From Haloarcula limicola (lineage in GTDB: Archaea > Halobacteriota > Halobacteria > Halobacteriales > Haloarculaceae): a stretch of 64,000 bases of DNA. Shown here one piece after another: positions 26,005 through 55,497 of this stretch; position 1 is the stretch's first letter; each line of letters starts with the position of its first letter. Both the position numbers and the translations under genes were made by a program. Under the pieces are notes generated by a model. It was not told the origin of the DNA, searched no databases, and was given only the letters and a program-made list of their open reading frames with translations. The stretch is from contig NZ_WRXM01000002.1 in assembly GCF_010119205.1 (NCBI RefSeq), forward strand, positions 922,982 through 986,981, in the 5' to 3' direction.

Positions 26005-26895
26005 ATGGACCTGCTCGACGTCGACGACCTCACGACCGACGAACTGACCGCGGTGCTCGACCGCGCCGCCGACATCAAGGCCGCCCCCGAGACGTACGAC
26101 GACGCGCTCGACGGCCAGACGCTGGGGATGATCTTCGAGAAGCCGTCGACGCGGACCCGCGTCTCCTTCGAGACGGGGATGACGAAACTCGGCGGTCACG
26201 CCGTCTTTCTCGGCCCGGACGACATCCACCTGGGCCACGGCGAACCCGTCAAGGACACGGCCCGGGCGCTCTCGCGGTACGTCGACTTCGTGATGGCCCG
26301 CGTCTTCGACCACGCCGACGCCGAGGAACTGGCCGAGTACGCCGACGTGCCGGTCATCAACGCCCTGACCGACGACGCCCACCCCTGCCAGACGCTCGCG
26401 GACTTACTGACCGTCCGCGAGGAGTTCGGCGGGTTCGAGGACGTCTCGGTGGCGTGGGTCGGTGACGGCAACAACGTCTGTCAGTCGTTCGTGCTGGGCG
26501 CGGCGATGACCGGCATCGACCTCACCGTCGCCACGCCCGAGGGGTACGAAGTGACCGACGACGTCCTGGAGCGGGCGGCCGAGTTCGACAACGCGCCCGC
26601 GACGACTCACGACCCCGAGTCGGCCGTCGAGGACGCCGACGTGGTCTACACGGACGTCTTCGTCAGCATGGGCCAGGAGGACCGCCGCGAGGCGAAACTC
26701 GCCGACTTTGACGGCTTCCAGGTCACCACCGACCTGCTCGGCGACCGCACGCTGATGCACTGCCTGCCCGCCCACCGCGGCGAGGAAGTGACCGACGAGG
26801 TTATCGAGTCGGAGAACGCCGTCGTCTGGGACCAGGCGGAGAACCGGATGCACGCGCAGAACGGGCTGCTGACGTGGCTGGCGGATAGAAAGTAG
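26005..26895 (+). CDS. argF: Ornithine carbamoyltransferase
   Basis: Forms citrulline from ornithine and carbamoyl phosphate. 296 aa with carbamoyl phosphate motif EKPSTRTRVSFE, ornithine-side HPCQTLADLLT and the HCLPAHRG loop. The start is 2 nt after argE. It ends the operon: a hairpin with T-tract follows at 26898-26928. The last 23 codons (ending MHAQNGLLTWLADRK) reappear, decayed, 211 nt downstream. Confidence 0.96.
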   Translation: MDLLDVDDLTTDELTAVLDRAADIKAAPETYDDALDGQTLGMIFEKPSTRTRVSFETGMTKLGGHAVFLGPDDIHLGHGEPVKDTARALSRYVDFVMARVFDHADAEELAEYADVPVINALTDDAHPCQTLADLLTVREEFGGFEDVSVAWVGDGNNVCQSFVLGAAMTGIDLTVATPEGYEVTDDVLERAAEFDNAPATTHDPESAVEDADVVYTDVFVSMGQEDRREAKLADFDGFQVTTDLLGDRTLMHCLPAHRGEEVTDEVIESENAVVWDQAENRMHAQNGLLTWLADRK

Positions 26896-26897
26896 TC

Positions 26898-26928
26898 CCG
26901 CGCTGAACGAAGTGAAGCGCGGCTTTTT
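26898..26928 (+). terminator. Hairpin plus T5 after argF
   Basis: Perfect 7-bp stem CCGCGCT (26898-26904) and AGCGCGG (26916-26922) with an 11-nt loop, followed by C and five T. Begins 2 nt after the argF stop, so it probably ends the arginine operon transcript. It is also the first part of the spacer shared with ileS. Confidence 0.7.
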
Positions 26929-26941
26929 CGCCACCGTCAGA

Positions 26942-26959
26942 GCAAGCTCTGACGAGCCT
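26942..26959. repeat. Short perfect palindrome in the argF spacer
   Basis: GTCAGAGCAAGCTCTGAC-type hairpin (GTCAGAG/CTCTGAC arms, four-base loop) a little downstream of the T-tract. Part of the structured 142-nt spacer between argF and its tail copy. Confidence 0.55.
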
Positions 26960-27037
26960 TGCTTCGCTCTGCTCAGCAAGACCACGGTTTTCGAGGCGTG
27001 GTGGCCGCGGGTCACCCGACGAAGCAAAAGGCGGCTG

Positions 27038-27106
27038 CTGGACCGGACGGAGAATCGGACGTACGCGCAGAACGGGCTGCTGACGCGGCTAGCGGGTAGA
27101 AGTTAG
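27038..27106 (+). pseudogene. Decayed second copy of the argF 3' end
   Basis: These 69 nt align without gaps to the last 69 nt of argF (26827-26895), with about 57 of 69 positions identical by eye. Translated in the same phase it gives DRTENRTYAQNGLLTRLAGRS against DQAENRMHAQNGLLTWLADRK in ArgF, and both end at a stop codon. Most differences are transitions. It is far too short to be an enzyme, so it is called a remnant; a conserved-looking spacer precedes it. Confidence 0.85.
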
Positions 27107-34376: not shown

Positions 34377-34380
34377 ACGA

Positions 34381-34454
34381 CCTTTTTCACCCGGGGGTTC
34401 GCGCTCGCCGGCGGCGAGCGCTCAACCCCGGGCCAAAAACGTCGATGAAAAAGG
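34381..34454. repeat. Nested palindrome downstream of lysC
   Basis: Outer arms CCTTTTTCA (34381-34389) and TGAAAAAGG (34446-34454) enclose a near-perfect 43-bp palindrome at 34390-34432 (CCCGGGGGTT...GCGCTCGCCG-g-CGGCGAGCGC...AACCCCGGG). Two more hairpins follow, CGAGT...ACTCG and CCGGCGGC-TCC-GCCGCCGG (34486-34504). It starts 4 nt after the lysC stop and may terminate transcription. The CTTTTTC ... GAAAAAGG frame recalls the spacers after argF and ileS. Confidence 0.7.
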
Positions 34455-48458: not shown

Positions 48459-50459
48459 ATGAAACGAAGTGGGGGCGAAAGCAAGTGGAGTCGGCGGGGA
48501 TTTCTCCGAGCGGCGGGAGTGACCGCCGTCGTCGGGTCGCTGGCGGGGTGTAGCGGGCTCACGGAGCAGGAGTTCGTCGCCGACGCCGTCGTGTTACCGG
48601 CCGATGCGCAATCTCGACTCGGGATGAGCGCCGTCGTCGAACAGCCACAGCGGAGCGAGATCGAGCGCACCGTCGGCGGACAGGACGTCAAAGCGACGGT
48701 CGAGAGTTTCGTCTCGGTGTACGCACGGGACGGGAGCGACGGAACGCAGGGGGCGGACGGCCCGGACGGTGACGAGTCGTTCCTCTCCGGATTCGTCGGT
48801 AGCGGCGAGGGAAGCGACGTCTTCGCCGGGCCGTCGACGGCGTTCGACGTAGCGGGCGGGACAGCCCCGTTCCTCGACGGCGACGACCCGGTCGACCCGC
48901 GCGGAATCGTCCTGTTCGCGTCTGGAGCGGCCCTGCGCGCCGGGCGCTCGATCGACCCCGGGAACGTCCTCGCGGTGGCGCACCGCTCGGCGTTCGAGGG
49001 AGCGGAGTCGTTCGTCGCCGGTGAAGCCGGCGCGCTGTTTCCGGACGGACACTTCTTCCCCGATACGAGATTCTTCCCCGAGAAACCGGCGTGGCTCCCC
49101 GACGAACCGCGGTGGGAATCGCCCGGCGACGCCGCCGTCGCGTTCTTCGCCGGCGGCGACGCCGACGTGACGCTCCCCGACGGACAGCGGTTCGAGGCCG
49201 GGGCGGAACTCGACGCCGAGTTCGTCGCCGCGCCGGCCGACGCGTTCTTCGACCCCGGCGTCTCGGTCACCGATCCCGACCGCATGGCGAAGGCGTTCGG
49301 CTTCGACCCGTCTGAACTGGTCGTCACCGACCCCGACCGGATGGCCCGCGACGCCGGCCTCGTCGTGTTTTCCGACGGGGAGCGCGGCGTCCCGTTCGCG
49401 TACTTCCCCGGATCGGAGTGGTTCCCGGACTCCACGTTCTTCCCAGACGGGTACTTCGCGGGCGACCGGCAGGTGCTGGCCGCGCCGCTCGGCGAGCTGT
49501 TCCCGGACGATTTCTTCTTCCCGGACGGCTACTTCTTCCCCGACGACTACGTCACGCCGAAGAGTCTCGCGCTGTTCTTCCCGTCGAAACCGCTCGACGA
49601 GGTCCCGGAGCCCTTCGCCGCCGTCGAATCCGGTGCCGAGATCGCGCCGTCCGAGACGCTCCTATTCGCGCCCGCGGCGTTCCCAGACGGCTACTTCTTC
49701 CCCGATTCGACCTTCTTCCCGGACGGCTATTTCTTCCCGGATACGATATTCTTCCCGGACTCGTCGTTCTTCCCGGACACCATCTTCGCCGAGGCGAGCG
49801 GCGACGTCGCGGCGGTGGCGAGTTCGAAACCGTCGGAAGCGTTCCCCGATACGATATTCTTCCCGGACAGTTCGTTCGCTCCGACGGCGGTGCTTCACTT
49901 CCCCGGCCGGTTCGGGTTCTCGACTGACACCTTCGCCGAGGGCGGCGGGCCGGTGGCCTACCGCGCGCAGTCGGGATCGATGGCCGACGTGAACGGGGGC
50001 GAACTCGGCGGTGCCCTCAGCGTCGGCGTGCTCAGCACGCCCGCCGCCAGCGTCGCCGGGCAGTCGCTCAACCCACTCGCCCGGCTGGGGCTCTCGGACC
50101 TGCTCACGAACCCGGGAGCCGAGTCGTTCCTCGGCTCCGCCGGCGTCGGGAGCGGCGACGTGAACTGGGAACGCGGCCCGACGCGACTGGCGACGGGCGA
50201 GACGACGGTCCTCGGCGAAGCGACCGCGCTGGAGACGTACGCGGGCGTCCTCGGCGGCGCGGAGCCGAGCGTCGTCTACCTCCACCTCGCTCGCGTCGAG
50301 AACGGCAAGAGCGTCGTCGTCGCGGCGGGCGTCCACGGCGGTCCCGTGGCCGATACCGGGCGGCCGTTCGTCGGCGCGGACGGCTACCTCAGCCGGTCCG
50401 AACTGGACGAGCACCGCGCGGACGTGGCCGCCGTCGACGAGGCGCTGGTCGTCCGCTGA
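48459..50459 (+). CDS. Tat lipoprotein with FPDxxF hexapeptide repeats
   Basis: 666 aa. Twin-arginine lipoprotein signal SRRGFLRAAGVTAVVGSLAGC, so it is probably anchored outside the membrane at Cys 31. Residues about 34-95 and 540-640 (GETTVLGEATALETYAGVLG and VVYLHLARVENGKSVVVAAG) resemble the two ends of haloarchaeal DUF6517-type lipoproteins. Between them lie five blocks of a six-residue repeat FPDxxF: 194-219, 316-333, 348-364, 408-443 (six exact tandem units) and 462-473. Variable pairs are GY, ST, TI, SS, GH, DF. Two further repeats read VTDPDRMA (about 270 and 289). Function unknown; a beta-solenoid-like or surface-adhesive insert is inference. Confidence 0.88.
   Translation: MKRSGGESKWSRRGFLRAAGVTAVVGSLAGCSGLTEQEFVADAVVLPADAQSRLGMSAVVEQPQRSEIERTVGGQDVKATVESFVSVYARDGSDGTQGADGPDGDESFLSGFVGSGEGSDVFAGPSTAFDVAGGTAPFLDGDDPVDPRGIVLFASGAALRAGRSIDPGNVLAVAHRSAFEGAESFVAGEAGALFPDGHFFPDTRFFPEKPAWLPDEPRWESPGDAAVAFFAGGDADVTLPDGQRFEAGAELDAEFVAAPADAFFDPGVSVTDPDRMAKAFGFDPSELVVTDPDRMARDAGLVVFSDGERGVPFAYFPGSEWFPDSTFFPDGYFAGDRQVLAAPLGELFPDDFFFPDGYFFPDDYVTPKSLALFFPSKPLDEVPEPFAAVESGAEIAPSETLLFAPAAFPDGYFFPDSTFFPDGYFFPDTIFFPDSSFFPDTIFAEASGDVAAVASSKPSEAFPDTIFFPDSSFAPTAVLHFPGRFGFSTDTFAEGGGPVAYRAQSGSMADVNGGELGGALSVGVLSTPAASVAGQSLNPLARLGLSDLLTNPGAESFLGSAGVGSGDVNWERGPTRLATGETTVLGEATALETYAGVLGGAEPSVVYLHLARVENGKSVVVAAGVHGGPVADTGRPFVGADGYLSRSELDEHRADVAAVDEALVVR
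49680..49787 (+). repeat. Six tandem 18-bp units encoding FPDxxF
   Basis: 108 nt = six in-phase 18-bp units, each TTCCC(A/C/G)GA(C/T)nnnnnnTTC. Unit pairs at the variable dipeptide are GY, ST, GY, TI, SS, TI. Codons differ between units, so the array is not a fresh expansion. Other blocks of the same unit lie at 49038-49115, 49404-49457, 49500-49550 and 49842-49877. Confidence 0.9.
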
Positions 50460-50468
50460 CGGGGCCGA

Positions 50469-50891
50469 TCAGGCCCCGTCTTCGATGGCCGCCGCGATGT
50501 CGTCGAGTTCGTCCTCGGAGAGGTCCGGTCGACTCCCGAACAGCGAGTGGATCGGACGGCCGCCGTCCCCGGCGAAGCGCGGGACGATGTGGCCGTGGAC
50601 GTGCGGTACCTCCTGACCGGCCTCCTCGCCGTTGTTGAACGCGACCGTGCTGCCGTCGGCGTCGACGGCCGCCTCGACGGCCGGCGTGAGTTCGTGCAGC
50701 GCCGCGAACACGTCGCTCCCGATGTCGCTCGGCAACTCACCGAGCGTCTCGTGGTGGGATTTCGGGATGACGAGCGTGTGGCCCCGAGCCAGCGGGTTGG
50801 CGTCGAGGAAGGCCAGTACGGTGTCGTCCTCGTAGACGGTGCGGCTGGGGATGTCGCCGGCGACTATCTGACAGAAGATGCAGTCGGACAT
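50469..50891 (-). CDS. HIT-family (histidine triad) protein
   Basis: 140 aa. Nucleotide hydrolase/transferase of the HINT branch: catalytic HVHGHIVPR at about residue 96, upstream ARGHTLVIPKSHHETLGELP, and an N-terminal CIFC pair. Usual substrates are AMP-linked amines or dinucleoside polyphosphates. Just downstream (same strand order) of the uracil-DNA glycosylase gene, with a 49-nt gap. Confidence 0.94.
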   Translation of the reverse strand: MSDCIFCQIVAGDIPSRTVYEDDTVLAFLDANPLARGHTLVIPKSHHETLGELPSDIGSDVFAALHELTPAVEAAVDADGSTVAFNNGEEAGQEVPHVHGHIVPRFAGDGGRPIHSLFGSRPDLSEDELDDIAAAIEDGA

Positions 50892-50940
50892 GTTCGGCGG
50901 TGGGTCCGGCGACCGTATGAAGGTTCCCCCGGTGCGGTCG

Positions 50941-51561
50941 CTACTCGACCGCCCGCGCGACGGCGGCCGCCAGCTCGGCCGCGTACTCGTCGTAGTCGTA
51001 GCCCAACCGGGACAGCCAGACCTCCTGATAGCTGGGGTGCAACAGCGGGACGACCGGGACGCCGAGCGCCTCGCTCTCCCGAACCGCGAGCACGCTGTCG
51101 ACGAACCTGTCGAGGCTATCGCCGTCGAGGGCGAGGAGAGTCGCGGTCGCGTGTTTGCCGGTCGGAACGACGGCCTTCGGAGCCACCGCCTCGACTTCCT
51201 CGACGAGGTACGGTCGGCAGTTCGCCAGTTCCTCGTCGGTCGGGTCGCGGTTCTCCGGCGGGTGGCATTTCACCGCGTTCGTGTAGTAACAGTCCCCGTG
51301 ACCGAACCCGGCGTCGGCGAGCAGGGTGCGGACTTTCCGCCCGGAGCGCCGGGAAGTGTAGGCCATCCCCGTGAGATTCCCGCCCTGCCACGTCTCGGCC
51401 TCGGGGTCGCCCTCGGCGGGCGCTTCGCCGACCACGACCACGTCGGCGTCGAGCGGGCCGTTCCCCCACGAGATGCACTCGCGGGCCTCGGCGAGGGCGG
51501 GACAGCGCTGACAGTCGGCGGCCTGTCGGTTGCGCTCGTGGGGGTCGGGGAACTCGGGCAC
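50941..51561 (-). CDS. Uracil-DNA glycosylase (family 4/5 type)
   Basis: 206 aa, GTG start giving (M)PEFPDPHERNRQAADCQRCP. Removes uracil from DNA. Motifs: GEAPAEGDPEAETWQGGN (motif 1), TNAVKCHPPENRDPTDEE, and LLHPSYQEVW (HPS, motif 2). Cys residues in CQRCP, CISW and VKC with NCRPY fit the iron-sulfur cluster of this group. The frame is open 27 codons upstream but that part is not family-like. Confidence 0.9.
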   Translation of the reverse strand: MPEFPDPHERNRQAADCQRCPALAEARECISWGNGPLDADVVVVGEAPAEGDPEAETWQGGNLTGMAYTSRRSGRKVRTLLADAGFGHGDCYYTNAVKCHPPENRDPTDEELANCRPYLVEEVEAVAPKAVVPTGKHATATLLALDGDSLDRFVDSVLAVRESEALGVPVVPLLHPSYQEVWLSRLGYDYDEYAAELAAAVARAVE

Positions 51562-51676
51562 ACGCAGACGGTGGGCTCGCGGGAGAAAAGAGTTGCCGGC
51601 TCTCCGCGTTTCGTCGGTCGATCGAGAGGGGGTGTCCCACAACGCATTTGTTCCGCCCGACTGATCCCTCAGCGGT

Positions 51677-51865
51677 ATGCCCTCCAGTTACGAGTTCCGA
51701 ACTCTCGAGGTCGACAGCAGCGTGATGGTGGCCGGATTCGGCGGGGACGTCCGCCCGCCCGTCGAGCGACTGAACGAACTCGGTGCCGAGGGGTGGGACG
51801 TCGCCGCCCCCATCACCGACAAGACCGGCGAGACGGTCAGCCTCCTGTTGCGACGCGAGGCGTAG
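51677..51865 (+). CDS. DUF4177-type small protein, 62 aa
   Basis: MPSSYEFRTLEVDSSVMVAG, then LNELGAEGWDVAAPITDKTG and SLLLRREA. The YEF start and LNELGAEGW core are diagnostic of DUF4177. Function unknown. It precedes ileS by 47 nt on the same strand. Confidence 0.85.
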   Translation: MPSSYEFRTLEVDSSVMVAGFGGDVRPPVERLNELGAEGWDVAAPITDKTGETVSLLLRREA

Positions 51866-51912
51866 CACGCACAATCGATTGTCCTTTAGTGTCGGCGGCG
51901 GATGGATTCGGT

Positions 51913-54900
51913 ATGGACAGGTTCGCCGCGGTCGACGACCAGTACGACCCCGAGGACGTCGAGGAGGGGGTCTTCTCCCACTGGGACGACGTCGACGCCT
52001 ACGAGCAGACCAAAGCGCACCGCGCCGACGGCGAGGAGTTCTTCTTCGTCGACGGCCCGCCCTACACCTCCGGGGCCGCGCACATGGGGACGACGTGGAA
52101 CAAGACGCTGAAGGACCTCTACATCCGCTACCACCGGATGAAGGGGTACGACGTGACCGACCGGCCGGGCTACGACATGCACGGCCTCCCCATCGAGACG
52201 AAAGTCGAGGAGCGCCTGGACTTCGAGAACAAGAAGGACATCGAGCGCTTCGGCGAGGAGAACTTCATCGAGGAGTGCAAGGCGTTCGCCGAGGAGCAGT
52301 TGGAGGGACTCCAGACGGACTTCCAGGACTTCGGCGTCTGGATGGACTGGGACGACCCGTACAAGACGGTGAACCCCGAGTACATGGAGGCCGCGTGGTG
52401 GGGCTTCCAGCGCGCTCACGAGCGCGGACTGGTCGAACAGGGCCAGCGCTCCATCAACCAGTGTCCCCGCTGTGAGACGGCCATCGCCAACAACGAGGTC
52501 GAACGCGAGGAGGTCGGCAAACCGTCTATCTACGTCAAATTCCCGCTGGCCGACCGCGAGGGCAGTCTGGTCATCTGGACGACGACGCCGTGGACGATCC
52601 CCGCTAACACCTTCGTCGCCGTCGACGGCGACGTGACCTATCAGGGCGTGCGAGCGACGAAGGACGGCGAGGAAGAGGTCCTCTACGTCGCCGAACCGCG
52701 CGTCGAGGACGTCCTCTCGAAGGGCCGGTACGACGACTACGAAGTCGTCGAGGAGGTCACCGGCGAGGAGATGGTCGGCTGGGAGTACGACCATCCGCTG
52801 TCCGAGGAAGTCCCCGACCACGCCAGCGGCGAGGGGTCGCTGCAGGTCTACACCGCCGACTACGTCGACGCCGAGGACCAGACCGGCCTCGTCCACTCCG
52901 CGCCGGGCCACGGCGAGGAGGACTTCGAGCGCGGGCGGGAGCTCGGCCTCGAGATCTTCTGTCCGGTGGGCAGCGACGGCGTCTACACCGAACAGGGCGG
53001 CGAGTACGCGGGCACGTTCGTCCGCGACGCCAACGACGACGTCATCGCCGACCTAGAGGCGAAGGGCGCGCTGCTGGCCAGCGAGTCGGGCTACACCGTC
53101 AACGAGGGCCACTGCTGGCGGTGTGACACGGGTATCGTCCGCATCGTCACCGACCAGTGGTTCATCACCGTCACCGACATCAAGGACGAACTGCTGGCGA
53201 ACATCGAGGACAGCGAGTGGCATCCCTCCTGGGCGCGGGACAACCGCTTCCGAGACTTCGTCGAGGACGCCCCCGACTGGAACGTCTCGCGCCAGCGCTA
53301 CTGGGGGATTCCGATCCCGATCTGGCTGCCCGAGGACTGGGACGGATCGATGGAGAACGCCATCGTCGTCGGCGACCGCGAGGAACTCACCGAGCGGGTG
53401 GATCAGGACGTCGACCCCGAGACGGTGGACCTCCACAAGGGGACCGTGGACGACCTCACCATCACGGAGGGCGGGACGACGTACTCCCGCGTGGAAGACG
53501 TCTTCGACGTGTGGCTCGACTCCTCGGTGGCGACGTGGGGCACGCTCGATTACCCCGAGCGGACCGAGGACTTCGAGCGCCTCTGGCCCGCCGACCTCAT
53601 CATGGAGGCCCACGACCAGACCCGAGGGTGGTTCTGGTCGCAACTGGGCATGTCCACGGCAGCGACCGGCGAGATTCCGTACAAGGAGGTGCTGATGCAC
53701 GGCTACGCCAACATGCCCGACGGCCGCGGGATGTCCAAGTCCAAGGGCGTGCTCATCGACCCCCACGAGGTCATCGAGAAGCACGGCCGGGACCCGATGC
53801 GCCTGTTTCTGCTCTCGGTGACCGCGCAGGGCGAGGACATGAACTTCTCCTGGGAGGAGACCCAGGAGATGCAGCGCCGGTTGAACATCCTCTGGAACGT
53901 CGCTCGATTCCCGCTGCCGTACATGCGGGCCGACGACTTCGACCCGGAGGAGACGACGGTCGAAGCTGTCGAAGGCGACCTCGAACTCGCCGACGAGTGG
54001 GTGCTCTCCCGCCTGCAGAGCGTCGAGGAAGCGATGACCGAGCACATGGACGAGTTCGAGAACGACAAGGCCGCCCACGAGCTGCTCGACTTCGTCGTCG
54101 AGGACGTCTCCCGGTTCTACATCCAGGTCGTCCGCGAGCGGATGTGGGAGGAGGAGGACAGCGACTCGAAGCGGGCGGCCTACGCCACCCTCTATCGGGT
54201 CCTGGAGGAAGTGGCCGCGCTGTTCGCGCCGTTCACCCCGTTCGTCGCCGAGAAGATCTACGGCTCGCTGACCGGCGACGCGGGCCACCCGACGGTCCAC
54301 ATGTGCGACTGGCCGGAACCGACCGACGACCTGCACGACCCCGCACTCGAAGACGAGATCGAGGTCGTCCGCGAGGTCGAGGAGGCGGGCTCGAACGCCC
54401 GCCAGCAGGCCGAGCGGAAACTGCGCTGGCCGGTCACGCGCGTCGTCGTCGACATCGCCGGACGCGGTCCGGCGGGCAGTCAGACGTCGTCTGACGACAC
54501 CGACAGCGACGCCGTGGCCGACGCCGTCCGCTCGCAGTCGGCCATCGTCGCCGACCGCCTCAACGCCCGAAGCGTCGACGTCGTCGGCGCAGATGAAGCG
54601 TGGGGCGAACTCCACTACTCGGCCGAGGCGGACATGAGCGAACTCGGCCCGGCCTTCGGCGACGACGCCGGCCGCGTGATGAACGCGCTCAACGACGCTC
54701 GCATCGAGGAACCGTCGCTCGATGCCCTCGAAGGAGCCGTTGAGGAGGCGCTCGGCGAGCGCGTCGACCTGACCGAGGAGATGGTCGAGTTCCGCCGCGA
54801 GACGCCCGAGGGCGTCACCGGCACGGAGTTCAAAGCGCTCGACGGCGGCGGCGTCGTCTACGTCGACACGACGCTCACGGAGGACATCGAGAGCGAGGGG

Positions 54901-55164
54901 TACGCCCGCGAGGTCGTCCGCCGGATTCAGGAGATGCGCAAGGAACTGGAACTGGACATCGAGGCGCGTATCGTCGTAGACCTCTCGATTGCCGACGACC
55001 GCGTGGATTCGCTGGTTCGGGAACACGAGGCCCTAATCAAAGAAGAGGTGCGCGCCGACGAACTCGGTACTGTTGAGGACGGTCACCGCAAGACGTGGGA
55101 CGTCGAAGGCACCGAGATGGAGATAGCTATCGCACCTGTGGCACCAGCACAGACCTCGGACTGA
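51913..55164 (+). CDS. ileS: Isoleucyl-tRNA synthetase
   Basis: 1083 aa class I synthetase. HIGH motif as HMGT in GPPYTSGAAHMGTTWNKTL, KMSKS as GRGMSKSKGVLIDP. Editing domain with IWTTTPWTIPANTFVAVDGD; zinc-type pairs CPRC and CWRC. C-terminal anticodon and tail regions are complete, ending MEIAIAPVAPAQTSD. Start MDRFAAVDDQYDPEDVEEGV; the frame is open far upstream but that is shadow sequence. The last 78 codons are repeated downstream after a 99-nt spacer. Confidence 0.97.
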   Translation: MDRFAAVDDQYDPEDVEEGVFSHWDDVDAYEQTKAHRADGEEFFFVDGPPYTSGAAHMGTTWNKTLKDLYIRYHRMKGYDVTDRPGYDMHGLPIETKVEERLDFENKKDIERFGEENFIEECKAFAEEQLEGLQTDFQDFGVWMDWDDPYKTVNPEYMEAAWWGFQRAHERGLVEQGQRSINQCPRCETAIANNEVEREEVGKPSIYVKFPLADREGSLVIWTTTPWTIPANTFVAVDGDVTYQGVRATKDGEEEVLYVAEPRVEDVLSKGRYDDYEVVEEVTGEEMVGWEYDHPLSEEVPDHASGEGSLQVYTADYVDAEDQTGLVHSAPGHGEEDFERGRELGLEIFCPVGSDGVYTEQGGEYAGTFVRDANDDVIADLEAKGALLASESGYTVNEGHCWRCDTGIVRIVTDQWFITVTDIKDELLANIEDSEWHPSWARDNRFRDFVEDAPDWNVSRQRYWGIPIPIWLPEDWDGSMENAIVVGDREELTERVDQDVDPETVDLHKGTVDDLTITEGGTTYSRVEDVFDVWLDSSVATWGTLDYPERTEDFERLWPADLIMEAHDQTRGWFWSQLGMSTAATGEIPYKEVLMHGYANMPDGRGMSKSKGVLIDPHEVIEKHGRDPMRLFLLSVTAQGEDMNFSWEETQEMQRRLNILWNVARFPLPYMRADDFDPEETTVEAVEGDLELADEWVLSRLQSVEEAMTEHMDEFENDKAAHELLDFVVEDVSRFYIQVVRERMWEEEDSDSKRAAYATLYRVLEEVAALFAPFTPFVAEKIYGSLTGDAGHPTVHMCDWPEPTDDLHDPALEDEIEVVREVEEAGSNARQQAERKLRWPVTRVVVDIAGRGPAGSQTSSDDTDSDAVADAVRSQSAIVADRLNARSVDVVGADEAWGELHYSAEADMSELGPAFGDDAGRVMNALNDARIEEPSLDALEGAVEEALGERVDLTEEMVEFRRETPEGVTGTEFKALDGGGVVYVDTTLTEDIESEGYAREVVRRIQEMRKELELDIEARIVVDLSIADDRVDSLVREHEALIKEEVRADELGTVEDGHRKTWDVEGTEMEIAIAPVAPAQTSD

Positions 55165-55263
55165 CTCTCAACGGGACCGAGCACCGCGAGGCCCCGCTTT
55201 TTCGCCCACGTTTTTCAACGAGCGGTGCGCGGAGCGCACCCGAGGCAGAAAAAGGTGGCAGCC
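55165..55263 (+). other. Structured spacer between ileS and its tail copy
   Basis: Holds two T5 tracts (55198-55202 and 55211-55215; likely transcription stops), then a perfect hairpin GGTGCGC-GGA-GCGCACC, then CGAGGCAGAAAAAGGTGGC, leading straight into the tail copy. The same order of parts stands between argF and its tail copy. Confidence 0.7.
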
Positions 55264-55497
55264 GAGATGCGCAAGGAACTGGAACTGGACATCGAGGCGC
55301 GTATCGTCGTGGACCTCTCGATTGCTGACGACCGCGTGGACTCGCTGGTTCGGGAACACGAGAACTTGATCAAAGAGGAGGTCCGCGCCGACGAACTCGG
55401 AACTGTTGAGGACGGTCACCGCAAGACGTGGGACGTCGAGGGCACCGAGATGGAGATCGCCATCGCCCCCGTGGCACCGACACAGACGTCGAACTGA
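55264..55497 (+). pseudogene. Second copy of the ileS 3' end (78 codons), possibly expressed as a small protein
   Basis: 234 nt aligned without gaps to 54931-55164, ending at the same stop codon. In an ORF of 76 aa from the internal ATG at 55267 it reads MRKELELDIEARIVVDLSIA onward and ends VAPTQTSN. By eye 17 codons differ: 14 synonymous and only 3 changing an amino acid (Ala to Asn, Ala to Thr, Asp to Asn). That pattern is not a neutral decaying copy; either the fragment is constrained or one of the two copies came from a related genome. It cannot be a synthetase alone. Confidence 0.85.

Follow-up and report, generated by a model that had tools for sequence, protein, structure and literature searches.

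The spacers downstream of two protein genes, argF and ileS, in Haloarcula limicola both contain one structured element, labelled E, which looks like an undescribed element at haloarchaeal gene ends that rewrites these ends without breaking the gene. E spans about 60-80 nt, with a longer form after argF. In the reading that we favour as the probable one, E is a non-coding structured element past the stop codon and T-tract whose arrival duplicates the gene tail, with later recombination between the tails and a probable role as a terminator. The DNA analysed, hereafter the window, is a stretch of 64,000 nt. The genome that holds it is labelled G000, other G-numbers denote other genomes, and L-numbers denote E loci. 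A sequence-only reading of the window had claimed that the argF and ileS spacers share one architecture, and direct inspection of the sequence confirmed this. The features assigned in the window are the following.

26005-26895, forward strand: argF (ornithine carbamoyltransferase), functional gene; open frame with the C-terminus QAENRMHAQNGLLTWLADRK before the stop.
26896-26922, forward strand: argF 3′UTR up to the T-tract, palindromic (GCGCTGAACGAAGTGAAGCGC); from the sequence.
26923-27034, forward strand: E after argF, made of CTTTTTCGCC, an extra palindromic module and the hairpin GTTTTCGAGGCGTGGTGGCC..GGTCACCCGACGAAGCAAAAGGCGG; covariance model R1, hairpin family.
27035-27106, forward strand: argF tail copy, decayed (DRTENRTYAQNGLLTRLAGRS before the stop), scar CTG+CT; repeat D12.
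34378-34453, reverse strand: third E, variant CTTTTTCATCGACG..AAAAAGGTCG (L204); R1 E-value 6.5e-6, G000:C2:957359-957434.
54202-55164, forward strand: 3′ part of ileS (isoleucyl-tRNA synthetase); open frame 50878-55164 and tail alignments.
55165-55196, forward strand: ileS 3′UTR up to the T-tract; from the sequence.
55197-55258, forward strand: E after ileS, canonical 62-nt form; R1 E-value 1.1e-15, G000:C2:978178-978239.
55259-55497, forward strand: ileS tail copy, scar CAG+CC; repeat D6 and tail alignments.

The identity of argF is presumed from our knowledge of the protein family and from its position in the arginine cluster. Its stop codon lies at 26893-26895, and the final ~66 nt of the gene form the left copy of the repeat; the 3′UTR partly recurs behind the tail copy as well (repeat D12). 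R1 matches the element after argF at 26982-27034 (E-value 0.0035), with the extra palindromic module sitting between CGCC and GTTTT. The argF tail copy carries ~7 amino-acid changes in 22 codons and would represent an old duplication. That selection maintains the tail copies was rejected for argF here, its copy having decayed. In other species the end of the main argF gene and the copy are closely alike within the species, as expected of gene conversion or a young duplication. The ileS stop codon is located at 55162-55164, and the left repeat copy comprises the final ~233 nt of the gene. Codon differences between the ileS gene and its tail copy are mainly synonymous (14 synonymous and 3 non-synonymous), which indicates that the divergence happened in a functional gene end; the copy in the window is thus probably the displaced end from a sister lineage. 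A repeat search of the window identified D6 (235 nt, 92%) at ileS and D12 (91 nt, 79%) at argF as its only long direct repeats besides coding and paralogue repeats, and in both cases E lies between the copies. At the third E, a variant (ATCGACG/GGTCG) with a gene end to its right and a stop codon (TTTAG) directly after the element, no direct repeat or tail copy was detected. As a separate observation, the coding region at 49023-49778 of the window contains eight-fold FPDGYFFPD-type repeats in an 18-nt register and encodes an unusual repetitive protein.

E starts with the T-tract CTTTTTCGCC(C)ACGTTTTT, continues with a covarying hairpin and ends in GAAAAAGGTGG. The core can be written as CTTTTTCGCCCACGTTTTT, followed by a hairpin between GAGYGGT and ACCCGA and by GAAAAAGGTGG, and is mostly 59-71 nt long, with some longer copies. 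The right end is constant and the left boundary variable. An alignment of 40 copies supports a single long imperfect hairpin, in which 89% of the cells are paired. Double changes affect 10 pairs and 83 cells, compared to 30 cells in shuffled alignments, and the covariation score of 0.242 (0.057 when shuffled) was reached by none of 500 shuffles. Hence, the pairing is real, as the sequence-only reading had proposed from two copies. Compensating two-sided changes are also seen among the variants, e.g. CGAC/GGTCG and GTAG/GGTAC. Comparison of the argF spacer with the Rfam covariance models gave nothing near the gathering score. Some E copies hold a further palindromic module, itself dispersed (GTCAGAGC..GCTCTGACGAGCCTTGCTTCGCTC..AGCAAGACCAC) between their two T-tracts (26933-26985 in the window, 2060-2110 in L080 and 2062-2120 in L079), which makes E part of a mosaic of palindromic modules. 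In addition, a fixed 3′UTR module, GCATCCGGCGGC..GCCGCCGGTTCACC or GCATACCGC..GCGGTTTCAC, with a second hairpin and then CTTTTTC is present upstream of many copies (L184, L187, L188, L192, L196, L201 and L204 in G000). This module with its hairpin is another dispersed haloarchaeal repeat family.

E is widespread. DNA searches with both window regions matched all 32 of 32 genomes of the genus; in most of these the matches were scattered over many unrelated positions, where only the spacer part aligned. With the covariance model R1, E was detected in 93 of 96 genomes of the Haloarculaceae, representing all 22 genera; across the order, 117 of 146 genomes carry it, and G000 alone holds 37 copies at an E-value of at most 0.01. 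No E was found in viral contigs searched by exact pattern or in phages, and plasmids are nearly free of it (two plasmid records). A viral or plasmid vehicle is thus unsupported. One E array was observed twice, near both ends of a single contig (G005:C1:56481-58031 and 3341545-3343096), which is probably the overlap of an unclosed circle in the assembly.

The sequence-only reading had further claimed that the spacer and the gene-tail copy form one unit. In 63 of 165 distinct copies, the sequence that follows E on the right also occurs to its left, compared to 0 of 165 when the right flanks were swapped between loci. This set is biased, as it includes loci fetched via argF, ileS or amidase queries. 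Among loci chosen by the model only, E lay downstream of genes and was followed by a copy of the gene end in 29 of 80 cases; the corresponding counts were 5 of 18 in G000 and 9 of 24 in named public genomes. The claimed unit therefore holds, with a statistically strong link between E and tail repeats in independent genomes, and this link recurs in other families (f5, f6 and f10). The repeats are 33-256 nt long (median 80) with a median identity of 96%, and 37 of the 63 begin exactly at the end of E. The left copy runs up to the stop codon or as far as the T-tract, so that the repeat may extend into the 3′UTR; a median of 32 nt separates the stop codon from the T-tract. Approximately 60% of the E copies show no recognisable repeat today, which indicates that duplication may not be obligatory; a motif devoid of any link to tail copies, the case opposed to the claim, did not occur. 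In several of the repeat-free copies (L067, L096, L110, L090 and others) the stop codon of a convergent gene often directly follows GGTGG, as if E were a two-way terminator.

Protein genes had been proposed as the targets, and this holds for nearly all repeat-flanked copies. By ORF length, 46 of 60 lie at the 3′ end of a protein gene and most of the other 13 are near-ties; our own reading puts the number at about 57 of 60. The claim fails for two gene starts (L181, L259) and one tRNA (L255). The arrays that were read (L075, L076, L081, L082) contain one repeat more than E. In one long DR-(E-DR)n array (L260, G044:C1:2703788-2705393), ten tandem E follow each other exactly 171 nt apart.

The tail copy begins directly after GGTGG. 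A GC in front of it, which the sequence-only reading had counted as spacer, instead belongs to the copy and its scar (CTG+CT at argF, CAG+CC at ileS), the copy starting after ..AAGG-GG. Extra C, CC, CT or T is present in 22-23 of ~60 junctions, and in 21 of them it follows exactly three bases that match the native sequence, or is in line with that; for example, ACT-GGACG becomes ACTCGGACG. The native target is purine-rich from +3 to +7, with G at 46-59% from +3 to +5 and T at just 2-9% from +4 to +7. A pyrimidine-G step occurs in 60% of repeat cases versus ~40% of the background, and the idea that the extra C pairs to close the stem is suggestive only. A junction of such regularity would not be the product of slippage or chance. 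The same gene and junction recur across genera and families, as in ileS (CAG^GAGATG) and etfA (TCG^ACGTGG). Possible reasons are a preference for certain targets, concerted evolution of old insertions, or transfer.

Two sets of loci bear on the claim that E inserts and leaves a restored 3′ end, and both agree with it. The inspected orthologs of the L074 gene in related genomes have no E at the gene end. At L074 in G000, the native stop codon and 3′ flank (GAGTAACGC..CTCCCGATTCTCG) come after the distal copy. By this comparison, E at L074 is an insertion with the gene end restored. In G023 and G024 the body of ileS is native (~94% identity to G029), while its end is foreign: over the final ~220 nt, the 3′UTR and E, the two species show 99-100% identity to each other and only ~77% to the native ends. 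The foreign end is nearest to G004 (89%) and G030 (87%), and the native ends remain behind E, matching the G008 and G029 genes at 88% and 94%. On its left, the foreign block begins somewhere in the 25 nt after the junction position, in a stretch that is nearly identical in the compared sequences, so the transfer needs no more than homologous recombination across the repeated core. The E copy of G024 holds the extra palindromic module, and thus E itself differs between the two genomes. The moving unit is thus tail plus E, as the sequence-only reading had proposed, and its spread from species to species looks like established units being exchanged by homologous recombination.

In the favoured reading, E would come to occupy the region just past the stop codon and the T-tract terminator, and its arrival would duplicate the preceding 30-250 nt (tail, stop codon and sometimes 3′UTR) on its other side. 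The upstream copy would complete the gene, and the native end would remain downstream as a remnant. The founding step, an insertion with long target duplication, could be the work of an enzyme, e.g. a cellular recombinase with the folded hairpin as its substrate, or of template-switching during replication in which the hairpin is recognised. Afterwards the unit would persist by recombination between the repeated tails, which may move it between species, homogenise it and expand it to DR-(E-DR)n arrays; precise loss that leaves the gene intact would also be possible. On the host side, E would probably act as a two-way transcription terminator. No near-identical donor E was found within the same genome (best pairs 91%; at most 85% for L183, whose repeat is 98.6% identical), which argues against recent copy-and-paste within a genome. 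The recurrent ileS and etfA sites could be old insertions whose similarity gene conversion has maintained, and not frequent new ones. A tentative variant of this reading, which we hold to be possible but doubtful, takes E as a folded recombination site: a cellular recombinase would cut and join a mobile cassette of tail, terminator and hairpin at its fixed end, GGTGG, and place it in purine-rich sites within homologous genes. Such cassettes would form an undescribed class of elements for 3′-end exchange among ordinary protein genes.

Ordinary tandem duplication would take E as a pre-existing terminator hairpin at which slippage or fork stalling re-copied the tail, the distal E being lost later. 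Replication does stall at hairpins, arrays exist, and in L097, L098, L099, L265 and L281 the repeat continues through CTTTTTCGCCC(ACGTT), so that part of E is native 3′ flank at these loci. Yet this model predicts equal numbers of repeats and E, whereas the last unit, in arrays as well as in single cases, is a repeat that no E follows; the L074 orthologs lack E, and the constant right end, the extra C and the purine-rich target are unexpected from slippage. We therefore regard it as unlikely. Rather unlikely, too, is that the loci are remnants of gene replacement, in which a donor end with its own E was brought in through homologous recombination at its left side and imprecise joining at its right, displacing the native end. 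G023 and G024, with their foreign ileS tail, E and native end downstream, fit this account, and so does the ileS copy in the window, which diverged while functional. A foreign donor is needless, however, where repeats are 98-100% identical and lineage-specific, as many are (L077 and L074, as well as argF, whose main genes and copies match per species), and replacement does not account for a right join always placed exactly at the end of E with a C scar.

Highly improbable is a transposition of E itself, whether by retroposition of its RNA through target-primed reverse transcription or as single strands by a Y1 (IS200/RAYT) transposase. A 3′ end that is constant, a 5′ end that varies and repeats of differing length do resemble target-primed reverse transcription, and Y1 enzymes mobilise REP-like palindromes in bacteria. 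On the other hand, reverse transcriptase (RVT_1) was found in 0 of 25 genomes searched, with the positive controls detected, and Y1_Tnp was absent from G000, G010, G019, G030, G033 and G044, all carriers of E and several of them with young-looking repeats or arrays; Y1 transposition also produces no target duplication. Both routes were rejected on these grounds. A coincidence of a common terminator motif with unrelated tail copies, which the absence of tail copies at some E would allow, has next to no probability: it is refuted by the swapped-flank control, along with the exact abutment and the recurrence in f5, f6 and f10.

If the favoured reading is true, a very short non-coding element could enter the tight intergenic space of a gene-dense genome without doing harm, since the gene end is duplicated and the gene stays whole. 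It would also account for scattered partial gene copies in haloarchaeal genomes, make whole gene ends exchangeable from one species to another, and point to an unknown recombination activity whose end and scar are both fixed and which is directly assayable. In addition, E readily serves as a marker of natural recombination in haloarchaea.

The sequence-only reading had raised an undescribed class of 3′-end element as something that could be, and the open-access literature on haloarchaeal repeats, MITEs, REP and terminators, a limited test, contains no description of E. E falls outside the MITE, REP/RAYT, retroelement and integrase-carrying classes, each of which differs from it in a tested feature; with attC sites the comparison is partial. 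As to terminators, the part of the haloarchaeal work considered here reports T stretches ending in C in intergenic 3′ flanks and hairpins upstream of termination sites (PMC7237163), both of which resemble E. This part treats sequence and hairpin motifs, with no mention there of a dispersed element or of tail duplication (PMC7237163).

E shares with the REP/BIME/REPIN and RAYT (Y1) systems the short dispersed intergenic palindromes in gene 3′ flanks, the mosaic of palindromic modules and the chromosomal location. Only E has long copies of the adjacent gene end on its flanks and a junction that stays constant, and its hosts can be free of Y1: G000 and five other E-carrying genomes lack the host Y1 (TnpA_REP) transposase. 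REPINs themselves have been described (PMC3116915). Like MITEs, E is small, non-coding and inverted-repeat-like; direct repeats lie on either side of its insertions, and ortholog sites can be empty. MITEs have short target-site duplications of nearly fixed length, whereas the repeats of E are long, variable and bound to gene ends, only one end of E is constant, an asymmetry that goes with a C scar, and no parent transposon came to light. The reverse transcriptase of a retroelement host was missing from the 25 genomes searched.

Integrative elements and prophages such as e14 and phage 21 in icd enter gene 3′ ends and restore them. E resembles such elements of tRNA and protein genes in bringing a replacement end upstream with the native end displaced downstream, and in foreign tails that differ mainly synonymously. 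It differs in having ~100 nt between the ends, no integrase and dozens of different target genes; in the window, the ~95-140 nt between gene and tail copy are too short for an integrase gene; the sequence-only reading, too, had noted no integrase. No GTTRRRY-type attC box was seen by eye in the E alignment A1, and the cargo of E is a gene tail, not a gene as in integron cassettes. As in these cassettes, a gene segment and a hairpin behave as a unit and form arrays. E is likewise a folded site of ~60-100 nt after the stop codon with conserved arms, an internal loop and a variable tip, and both its fold and its position past the stop fit an attC-type site with a putative role in recombination.
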